Shown: piece by piece, positions 115-30,069 of the stretch
Numbering within the stretch: position 1 is the stretch's first letter
Layout: each line of letters starts with the position of its first letter
NCBI GenBank assembly: GCA_944372075.1
Contig: CALVYJ010000002.1
Location: forward strand, 1 to 33,821
Direction: 5' to 3'
DNA: 33,821 nt
From: an uncultured Clostridia bacterium
GTDB lineage: Bacteria; Bacillota; Clostridia; Christensenellales; Borkfalkiaceae
Translations under genes and position numbers: made by a program
Notes under the pieces: model-generated
Database searches by the model: none
What the model was told of the DNA's origin: nothing
The model's input: the letters and a program-made list of their open reading frames with translations, nothing else

Positions 115-189
115 GGCCCCGTGGTCAAGCGGTCAAGACATCGCCCTTTCACGGCGGTAACACGAGTTCGATTCTCGTCGGGGTCACCA
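115..189 (+). tRNA. tRNA-Glu (anticodon TTC)
   Basis: This is a full cloverleaf. Acceptor GGCCCCG pairs with CGGGGTC, the anticodon stem is TCGCC/GGCGG around loop CTTTCAC (anticodon TTC), the T arm is ACGAG/CTCGT around TTCGATT, and CCA is encoded at 187-189. The CCA is followed with no gap by a structured GC-rich repeat at 190-321. The last 16 bases of the tRNA recur at 325-340. The gene itself looks intact and functional. Confidence 0.97.
174..189 (+). repeat. Direct repeat, left copy (tRNA-Glu 3' end, att-like)
   Basis: The last 16 bases of tRNA-Glu (CTCGTCGGGGTCACCA) are repeated exactly at 325-340, on the far side of the structured repeat. A duplicated tRNA 3' end flanking an insertion is the usual footprint of site-specific integration. 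The identity is seen directly; the integration reading is inference. Confidence 0.8.
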
Positions 190-321
190 CGAAAAGAGAG
201 AGGTTTTTTAACCTCTCTCTTTTCGCGGTATCCTATGCAAGAAGCGAACGGGCGCGGCGAAGCCGCGGCTGTTCGCGCGAGCAAAGCGCCGCCCTGCCGA
301 CCCTTTTCGGGGCTTCGGCAG
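190..321 (+). repeat. Structured interspersed repeat, copy 1 (tRNA-abutting)
   Basis: This 132-bp GC-rich segment matches 29936-30069 with about nine substitutions and two single-base indels. It contains three successive hairpins. The first (190-225) has a 16-bp perfect stem built on AAAAGAGAGAGG. The second (244-276) has GCGAAC/GTTCGC outside CGCGGC-GAA-GCCGCG. The third (294-321) has CTGCCGA/TCGGCAG around CCC..GGG. Most differences between copies fall in the loop of hairpin 1. Apparent reading frames exist on both strands, but they lack ribosome sites, and an indel shifts the frame between copies. It is therefore more likely a structured RNA or small non-autonomous element than a gene. It lies inside the tRNA transcript, before the terminator at 350-392. 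Confidence 0.85.
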
Positions 322-324
322 ATG

Positions 325-340
325 CTCGTCGGGGTCACCA
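325..340 (+). repeat. Direct repeat, right copy (partial tRNA-Glu 3' end)
   Basis: This is an exact 16-base copy of the 3' end of tRNA-Glu (half of the T arm, acceptor strand, discriminator, CCA). It is not a tRNA gene, since nothing upstream can form the remaining arms. Together with 174-189 it brackets 135 bp that are almost entirely the structured repeat. Confidence 0.8.
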
Positions 341-349
341 AATGCGAAT

Positions 350-392
350 AAATCCGAACCTTGAGGAATATCTGAAGTTCGGATTATTTTTT
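350..392 (+). terminator. Rho-independent terminator of the tRNA operon
   Basis: Inverted repeat AATCCGAAC (351-359) and GTTCGGATT (377-385) is followed by a T-rich run at 387-392. It lies 10 bp after the duplicated tRNA end and would terminate the tRNA-Met/tRNA-Glu/repeat transcript. Confidence 0.8.
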
Positions 393-6394: not shown

Positions 6395-8428
6395 ATGCCG
6401 ATCAATAAAATAAAAAGGTTGCCGCTCATAATGTCGATCGTCTTGTTCGCCATATTTCTTGCGGGAATCGTATTCAGTTGTATTTTTACCGCGCTTCGGA
6501 ACGAAAAATCGGAATTTAGCGCCGATATTTCTTACTATGCGGGGAATATCGGTCAGATGTATGAGCATGAGGACATCTCTTATCTCGGAACATTGGACGG
6601 GAGGGTCGTTGCGTTTGACAAAACGGGCGAAAAACTCTGGGAGAACGTGAGCGGGGAGGAAGATAAGTCCGCCGTACGGGTTATTTCGGCGGAGGGGAAC
6701 CGCATTTACGCAGCTTATTCAAATTGCAGGATCGTCGTTTTTGACAGCATTTCGGGAGAAATTGTCAATGTGTATTTGGCCCGCAGCGCAAGCGATATAC
6801 AGATTATTCCGGAGGCGCTGAAGTTCTGTCGGGATTCGGAATGGTTTGCGGTGTGCGGTGCGTATGGGCAAAGGCAGGCGATCGCTCTGTTTGAAACGAG
6901 TGCAAAAGGGACGATGCAGACTCCGCAACGTATGCAAGACGATATGATCTGTGAGGCGGCAAACATTGAATGTTTTGCCTTTGGCGACAAAGCGGATATA
7001 TATTATGCAAATTCAACGGGGCGTATTTATCGGGTATCGGCGGATAATTTTACTTCTGCGAAGCTGGTAGGAAAAACCGAGAGCGGAAATGCGCTGAAAG
7101 CATTGGCGGGGACGGAAGAGAACGGTTTTATCGGCGTGGATGACGGCGGCATACTGTATACGTTTGACGACGAATGGAACGTTGCGGAAAAAAAAGATTT
7201 ACATACGGATATTTCCACTGCGATTGAATGCGGGGATGATTTTCTCTGCAAATCTCCGAACGGCGGCGTATTTTTAATTAAGACGGAGACAAAGAAGATA
7301 GCGTTTCGGATTGAAACGGATGCGGACGCATTGATTTTGTTTTCGTCGTTGCAGATGTTTGCGGTTTCGTCCGAGGGGAAGATTTCTTTCTATGATGTAA
7401 AATTAGCCGGGCGGATAGAGACATATTCCGCGTTGGTATGGGTCGGAGCCGTTGCGGGCGCGCTCGCGTGTTTGGCGGGTATCTGTTGCGTATTGAATGT
7501 TACGCAAAACGGCAGCGAAAAATTCAGGGCGTTTTTTGCGGGAGTCGGAAGAGCATTTTGGAAAAATCGTCTGGTTTATTTTAGTTTGATCCCGGTGGTG
7601 GCTGTGATCGGCGTATTCTGTTACGTGCCGATGGTATGGAGCATTATTCTGTCGTTTTGGGACTATTTGCCCGGGGTGCGTTCGGTATGGGTAGGATTTG
7701 AAAATTTCAAATTGGTTGTACAGACGCAAAGTTTTTGGCAATCGTGCATTCCGATGTTCGTATTTCTTTTGGCGGATCTGATAAAGGCGCTGGTGCCGCC
7801 TATTGTTTTTGCGGAATGTTTGATTGCGATAAAGAGGAAGATGTTTTCGTTTTGGGCGCGGTGTCTGTTGTTTATACCGGGAATATTGCCCGGGGTTGCT
7901 ACGACGTTGCTGTGGATTAACGGAATATTCGGTGAGTACGGACTTGTCAATCAAGTGGCATCGATATTTGTACCGGAATGGGTATCGTTTAACTTTTTGT
8001 CGAGATCGTCCACATCGCTGGCGTCCATAATAATGTTCGGGTTGCCTTGGGTGGGTTCCTATCTTATTTTTTACGGGGCGATCATGGGTTTGCCGACGTC
8101 GATGTATGAGGCGGCGAAACTGGACGGATGCGGATGGATCAAACGTATTTTTTCTTTGGATCTGCCTCTCATCTTGCCGCAGATCAAATATATTGTGATC
8201 ACTACTTTCATTGCCTCGGTGCAAAGTTATACCAATATGTATATAGTATCCAACGGCAGTTTGCCTATGGCAAACGAATTAGGGATCGGAACGCCGGCTT
8301 ATCATATGTATTATGAACTGATGCACAACATGAATTATGGTACGGCAAGCGCGATGGGTGTATTTTTGTTCCTGTTTCTGTTGGTCGCGACGATCATCAA
8401 TTTTCGCATGCAGTCGGATAAATCCTGA
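6395..8428 (+). CDS. Sugar ABC transporter permease (MalF type) with fused extracellular beta-propeller-like domain
   Basis: The protein has 677 residues, about twice the usual MalF-type length. After one N-terminal membrane helix (about 10-33), residues about 40-340 form a soluble beta-rich domain with repeated VVAFD.TGE / IVVFDSISGE strands like PQQ/WD40-type propeller blades. A second helix (about 345-370) leads to a standard binding-protein-dependent permease core. The EAA loop starts at residue 572 (EAAKLDGCGW) and would contact the ATPase. By topology the propeller faces outside. ATG at 6395 is chosen for its AAGAAGGG site and its position just before helix 1; the upstream TTG at 6302 is unlikely. 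It pairs with the next gene as a heterodimeric importer. No ATPase gene is nearby. Confidence 0.85.
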   Translation: MPINKIKRLPLIMSIVLFAIFLAGIVFSCIFTALRNEKSEFSADISYYAGNIGQMYEHEDISYLGTLDGRVVAFDKTGEKLWENVSGEEDKSAVRVISAEGNRIYAAYSNCRIVVFDSISGEIVNVYLARSASDIQIIPEALKFCRDSEWFAVCGAYGQRQAIALFETSAKGTMQTPQRMQDDMICEAANIECFAFGDKADIYYANSTGRIYRVSADNFTSAKLVGKTESGNALKALAGTEENGFIGVDDGGILYTFDDEWNVAEKKDLHTDISTAIECGDDFLCKSPNGGVFLIKTETKKIAFRIETDADALILFSSLQMFAVSSEGKISFYDVKLAGRIETYSALVWVGAVAGALACLAGICCVLNVTQNGSEKFRAFFAGVGRAFWKNRLVYFSLIPVVAVIGVFCYVPMVWSIILSFWDYLPGVRSVWVGFENFKLVVQTQSFWQSCIPMFVFLLADLIKALVPPIVFAECLIAIKRKMFSFWARCLLFIPGILPGVATTLLWINGIFGEYGLVNQVASIFVPEWVSFNFLSRSSTSLASIIMFGLPWVGSYLIFYGAIMGLPTSMYEAAKLDGCGWIKRIFSLDLPLILPQIKYIVITTFIASVQSYTNMYIVSNGSLPMANELGIGTPAYHMYYELMHNMNYGTASAMGVFLFLFLLVATIINFRMQSDKS

Positions 8429-29935: not shown

Positions 29936-30069
29936 CGAAAAGAGAGAGGCTAAAAAACCTCTCTCTTTTCGCGGTACCCCTATGCAAAAGACGAACGGGC
30001 GCGGCGAAGCCGCGGCTGTTCGCGCGAGCAAAGCGCCGCCCTGCCGACCCCTTTTCGGGGCTTCGGCAG
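29936..30069 (+). repeat. Structured interspersed repeat, copy 2
   Basis: This 134-bp copy of 190-321 has the same three hairpins. The first stem here extends outward to 29934 (CGCG..CGCG, 16 bp), the second uses CGAAC/GTTCG (29992-30022), and the third (30041-30069) has a full CCCC/GGGG inner stem. Roughly 60 central bases are identical to copy 1. No tRNA or tRNA fragment is adjacent and no flanking duplication was found. It follows the methyltransferase gene by 123 bp and is followed at once by a terminator. Confidence 0.85.

Follow-up and report, generated by a model that had tools for sequence, protein, structure and literature searches.

A probable RtT-like trailer behind tRNA-Glu(TTC) in a family of uncultured Clostridia

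Introduction

How does a tRNA gene come to be followed by a second, exact copy of its own 3′ end? This question is raised by a stretch of 33,821 nucleotides from an uncultured Clostridia bacterium (the window), which begins within a tRNA-Met gene and continues with a tRNA-Glu(TTC) gene (115–189, plus strand; assigned by ARAGORN and Rfam). The initial annotation of this DNA regarded the repeated tRNA end as the footprint of an integration event, either of a minimal satellite mobilized by an integrase in trans or of a larger element that left a scar, and alternatively considered a processed small RNA. Here, we compare the locus with its relatives and weigh these readings against a local origin of the tail copies.

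Results

The T-arm/acceptor strand of tRNA-Glu is present in triplicate

In the host gene, the T-loop GTTCG is located at 166–170, and the 3′ tail T1, corresponding to tRNA positions 61–76, at 174–189. As initially annotated, these last 16 bases recur exactly at 325–340, and the direct repeat extends to 20 bp at 95% identity if started from 170 and 321, respectively. Within 400 bp, a given 16-mer is expected to recur by chance in ~1 in 10^7 tries, and the arrangement is found again at many independent loci (see below). The second direct copy, T2 (322–340), again ends in CCA. The 135 bases separating the two tails are made up of three hairpins, the first base being 190, directly 3′ of CCA. Thus, both sequence and fold bear out the ~135-bp structured element described before, with a folding energy of −85.5 kcal/mol for 187–340 (z −6.8 versus shuffles).

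All parts of the unit are read on the plus strand. Hairpin 1 (h-l-h′, 190–225) is evident from sequence and fold and forms a terminator-like 16-bp stem from the first base past CCA. It is followed by T′A′ (226–249), which resembles the reverse complement of the tRNA 3′ tail in degenerate form, was detected as an inverted repeat and in an anchored test (see below), and ends in GCGAAC, the complement of the T-loop GTTCG(C). In hairpin 2 (A′-m-A, 244–276; folds and alignment), GCGAAC and GTTCGC enclose the GC-rich segment m (250–270), which is bordered by a second GTTCG (271–275). The B module with hairpin 3 (276–321), located between GTTCG and AT, is the conserved part of the family as judged by alignment and covariation. 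The inverted tail copy at 210–249 was overlooked in the initial annotation; in our repeat search of the window, it mirrors 166–205 with 78% identity over 40 nt. The T-arm/acceptor strand of tRNA-Glu is therefore present three times, in direct, inverted, and again direct orientation, and the plan of the unit past CCA is a terminator-like hairpin, T′, the A′-m-A-B hairpin module, and T2.

Past T2, sequence inspection reveals the apparent tRNA terminator (351–392, plus strand), composed of the arms AATCCGAAC and GTTCGGATT and a subsequent T6. Since this terminator-like stem and T-run come after the second tail, the unit is contained in the apparent tRNA transcription unit, as had been proposed. 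The window holds one tRNA-linked unit, which is not in tandem. A known RNA family was considered and dismissed: at threshold, Rfam returns the tRNA alone, and weak microRNA-type matches are hairpin look-alikes.

Relatives with a single tail reveal the addition of 151 bp

Two genomes of the same genus, G009 (L042) and G002 (L054), contain an empty site, the absence of which from relatives had been named beforehand as evidence against integration. In both, tRNA-Glu(TTC) carries a single tail and is immediately followed by a terminator homologous to the one at 351–392 of the window. Because these relatives combine one tail with the same downstream terminator, something was added in the window. 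In G003, the same tRNA is followed by a different B type, and the flank past its second tail (AAATGCGAACAAATCCGAAC) equals that of the window; with few changes, this flank also matches the empty site of G002. The agreement of the three flanks implies that T2 connects to the ancestral downstream sequence and that the addition measures 151 bp relative to the empty site, as compared with the ~135 bp lying between the tails. Consequently, the footprint is confirmed as an addition at a site with one tail, but its attribution to an integrase-type satellite or scar is not supported, the tails being those of the local gene.

Units recur across the family with tails of the local gene

Within this family of uncultured Clostridia, the same anatomy is found, often in tandem, behind ~13 kinds of tRNA gene and a single tmRNA gene. 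The host tRNAs are Glu-TTC, Glu-CTC, Ala-CGC, Val-GAC, Val-CAC, Arg-CCG, Arg-CCT, Lys-CTT, Tyr, Leu-TAA, Leu-TAG, Thr-CGT, and Met. The search for the element beside other tRNA genes, suggested in the initial annotation, was thus productive, and tRNA-end duplications are indeed present at other genomic copies; their lack would have spoken against its integration reading. Tandem arrays comprise three repeated tails at Glu in G036 and two units each at Ala in G009 and at Val in G001.

In all of the 17 units collected first, hairpin 1 begins immediately past CCA. We anchored the test of T′ at the foot of hairpin 1, replacing a noisy local-alignment test with mixed results. In 21 of the 28 units with a real stem, the tail of the host tRNA was one of the six best matches to T′ out of 34 tRNA species (4.9 expected, P = 5e-11); counted once per isoacceptor, this was the case in 9 of 12 (P = 2e-5), and because the units are related to one another, both P values overstate their independence. 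The clearest T′ is found in the tmRNA unit of G281 (contig C59, locus L221), where the tmRNA 3′ end is mirrored almost perfectly, with TGGTGGAGATGGCGGAGGAGAACC versus the expected TGGTGGAGATGGCGGGAGTCGAACC. In several units T′ is degenerate, the own tail ranking 3rd of 34 in the window, 27th in L093, and 23rd in L100. The terminal copy T2 likewise matches the local gene, with CCA lost in some Glu-CTC and Arg units. No att sequence is constant among copies at different sites; each tail matches its local tRNA. These local tails are hard to reconcile with an element carrying a fixed attP.

To determine the distribution of the interior, we used R1, a covariance model of this part of the element. 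R1 matches were obtained in 35 of the 40 genomes of the genus and, at the level of the family, in 26 of 61 sampled genomes and in 11 of 18 genera, with 1–11 matches per positive genome. Elsewhere in the order, R1 gave two weak matches only. An exact-pattern search had pointed to a restriction of the element to the genus, which the covariance model overturned in favor of a family-wide occurrence. In viral contigs, 26 pattern matches were taken as chance, none of the contexts inspected having a tRNA end before it or hairpin 3 after it. In the genome of the window itself, Ala-CGC has kept a relic (L125), and two more units carry an Ala-GGC tail (C141) and, where a contig begins, a Tyr-like tail (C112), respectively, while the Glu-CTC gene is followed by a terminator-like hairpin alone. 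In the literature searched, we found no earlier reports of such repeats in Clostridia.

Many contigs, including that of the window, start or stop at these tRNA loci, probably due to disruption of short-read assembly by the repeats. Copy numbers are therefore lower bounds. Two further features were observed in the vicinity of such loci. A 6S RNA gene (L048, 379–558; RF00013, 60.6 bits, above cut-off) is located just upstream of the Glu-CTC array of G021, and in three species, another short repeat (GAGGATAAGGGCGCATCTTGCGCCCTTTCT) occurs downstream of either tRNA genes or the elements described here (L120, after tRNA-Arg CCG; L049, near 1050–990; L199, near 400).

T′ and T2 are predicted to close a tRNA-end-like stem

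Folding of the segments from T′ to T2 (the window, two Ala units, one Glu unit, and both E. coli units) yields a closing stem around internal hairpins with z-scores of −2.6 to −3.7; in the Ala unit of L094, this stem does not involve the CCA end of T2. Transitions in T′ keep pairing in 51 cases and break it in 31 (P = 0.005, the units not being independent). Moreover, hairpin 3 carries compensatory changes, as seen by covariation across the alignment. Together, the T′ transitions and the changes in hairpin 3 lend modest support to a constraint at the RNA level, against which speaks the loss of CCA from T2 in some Glu-CTC and Arg units.

The B module is shared between loci

B consists of CGCGAGC... 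and a subsequent CCGAGG ... TTCGGCA hairpin and lies between the T-loop GTTCG and either A58 or the T-stem. The module is also found within the T-loop of tandem, whole tRNA-like copies, at a constant position between G57 and A58 (L202, 460–830; L194, 500–910; L191, 470–1077; L209; L052, 1020–1190; L048, 630–950). These copies have a degenerate 3′ end and adjoin intact Arg-CCT, Gly-CCC, or Glu genes or contig ends.

A long B is common to the Val, Ala, and Arg loci of G001 (84–91% identity). At three tRNA loci of this genome (L053, L097, L098), a longer repeat ending CCCAAAAATCTCGC..GCGATTTTCGGGAGCCC is embedded in B, and a similar sequence occurs between tRNA-Met genes in G015 (L052).

In the window, a dispersed copy of the interior, from hairpin 1 to the end of B, is located at 29936–30069 (plus strand, 92% identical), with neither a tRNA nor a tail copy beside it. 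In the alignment, its two limits fall where CCA and B, respectively, terminate. No target-site duplication was detected at this copy, and a search for its empty site found none. The loop of its hairpin 1 is reversed relative to 190–321 (GG-CTAAAAAA-CC against GG-TTTTTTAA-CC), and on the minus strand the match rises to 94% and continues into the tail, which is suggestive of a flipped hairpin.

The unit behind tRNA-Glu is 92% identical to this dispersed copy but only 81% identical to its counterpart behind the same tRNA in G028. Given the common B of the G001 hosts and the closer match of the tRNA-Glu unit to the dispersed copy than to its G028 counterpart, B has also been copied between loci. 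A purely local origin leaves this sharing unexplained, and some inter-locus copying is needed.

ICE ends abut element tails

ICE-like ends were observed at element tails in L055 (8647–10185, minus strand), L056 (~7810–7964), and L213. Next to an esterase gene, an element copy carries the tail GGGTCACCA, at which a serine-recombinase gene terminates in G019; in G022, the same copy is bordered by foreign DNA including a relaxase-like gene. We had considered these two copies as independent insertions with defined ends; in fact, they represent one common chromosomal locus beside an ICE end. Further, an apparent recombinase C-terminus abuts a tRNA-Leu-type tail in G260. In G019, G022, and apparently G260, the ICE appears to have taken an existing tail as its target. 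Tail copies may thus serve as additional ICE targets or attachment sites.

Discussion

We consider the feature behind tRNA-Glu(TTC) to be probably an RtT-like tRNA trailer, a member of a family-wide set in which the acceptor/T-arm half of the host is duplicated locally to give a putative co-transcribed tRNA-end mimic. The tail copies would arise at the locus itself without an integrase; in the simplest route, replication would switch templates twice between the palindromes that bracket the acceptor strand, namely the terminator hairpin and the T-arm. The element would be co-transcribed with the tRNA, and T′ could pair with T2 to enclose hairpins 2 and 3 in a stem that resembles that of acceptor and T-stem and carries a 3′ CCA. 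By analogy with the annotated rttR of E. coli, the tRNA-processing machinery may then release a small CCA-ended RNA. Among the suggestions of the initial annotation, a processed small RNA transcribed together with the tRNA fits best, and we regard it as putative.

The sharing of B between loci can also be accounted for by a selfish hairpin acting at the DNA level. Such a MITE/REP-like module would target the T-loop at G57/A58 through B and spread in trans between tRNA genes; survivors would leave or regenerate an intact tRNA, and any RNA function would be incidental. The constant T-loop position of B in many tRNA-like copies, its presence in common at the Val, Ala, and Arg loci of G001, and the aligned limits of the dispersed copy at 29936, set where CCA and B terminate, are in line with this possibility. 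Insertion of B alone, however, fails to account for the local T′ and T2, and a linked transposase or integrase, a high copy number (1–11 model matches per positive genome), and a target-site duplication at the dispersed copy are all missing, so that we rate it as possible but rather doubtful. With similar reserve, one may tentatively conceive of a new class of tRNA-parasitic hairpin element, in which the spread of the T-loop module (G57/A58) itself mirrors and re-copies the acceptor half of the host. If true, a parasitic module would leave the tRNA intact while extending its transcript by a CCA-ended tRNA-end mimic; within one family, it would have reached ~13 tRNA species and a tmRNA, and the RtT repeats of E. 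coli would be an independent instance.

We consider it unlikely that the units are plain terminators accompanied by functionless, decaying duplication debris. A T-run is often present at the end of hairpin 1 (Ala, Arg, Lys, and Val units), Glu-CTC in the genome of the window has such a hairpin only, and numerous units have decayed, for example, the Ala-CGC relic in L125. Yet the interior is kept across genera, as documented by R1 matching 35 of the 40 genomes within the genus as well as 11 of the 18 genera, hairpin 3 shows compensatory change, and the apparent terminator of the window is positioned beyond T2.

The satellite or scar placed by an integrase, although in agreement with the empty sites, the direct repeat of the tRNA 3′ end, the junction of T2 with the ancestral flank, and the ICE ends abutting tails in G019, G022, and apparently G260, is largely refuted as the main reading and very improbable, because one tail is expected of a mobile element that has a fixed attP, whereas the tail here differs by site and is always local at ~13 tRNA species and a tmRNA, an inverted local tail lies inside the element, tandem arrays occur, tRNA-like copies carry B in the T-loop, and no integrase gene belongs to the element or was seen beside tRNA-linked units. 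The locus is a warning that a duplicated tRNA 3′ end by itself does not prove integration.

Compared with known systems, the RtT-like trailers share with integrative elements at tRNA 3′ ends (tyrosine/serine integrases, ICEs) the direct repeat flanking an insert and the existence of empty sites, but differ in their size of ~150 bp, the lack of an integrase, the always local tail, the internal inverted tail, and the tandem copies. MITE/REP-like repeats are likewise short, structured, dispersed, and gene-free, whereas the trailers reside at tRNA ends and in T-loops and have no host-independent terminal inverted repeats. An archaeal motif behind many tRNA genes, for which a role in 3′ maturation has been suggested, is also genome-specific and structured; in contrast to the trailers, it is a short palindrome (CGTTA N9 TAACG) with no tail copies reported.

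The closest known counterpart, and the only other locus known to us at which the host's own 3′ end is mirrored and repeated behind a tRNA, is that of the RtT or 178-bp repeats behind tyrT-tyrV in E. coli (RF00391, rttR), which are usually regarded as a one-operon curiosity. There, too, tandem units each end in the tRNA's own tail, and the K-12 order of tyrT-tyrV-rttR, namely tail, spacer, inverted T-arm/acceptor copy, GGTTCG, hairpins, and tail, is like that of the family described here. The inverted T-arm/acceptor copy (22 nt at 86%) corresponds to T′, the segments from T′ to T2 fold into a closing stem as in the Clostridia units, and the CCA of the last tail is precisely where the annotated rttR RNA stops. 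In contrast, the E. coli inverted copy is further from the tRNA, no hairpin directly follows CCA, rttR overlaps a small ORF (tpr), and a single tRNA species is concerned instead of ~13 and a tmRNA. The RtT covariance model (RF00391) gives four matches in the E. coli locus (133–138 bits) and none in the window, eight related loci, or the genome of the window; conversely, R1 has no match in E. coli. Because neither lineage matches the other by sequence or by model, the similarity is one of architecture and does not demonstrate shared ancestry. The direct-inverted-direct anatomy in an unrelated second lineage suggests a general process acting on the acceptor/T-arm half of tRNAs, and the many natural units and empty sites of the Clostridia family make RNA mimicry, template switching, and a T-loop parasite testable against one another.
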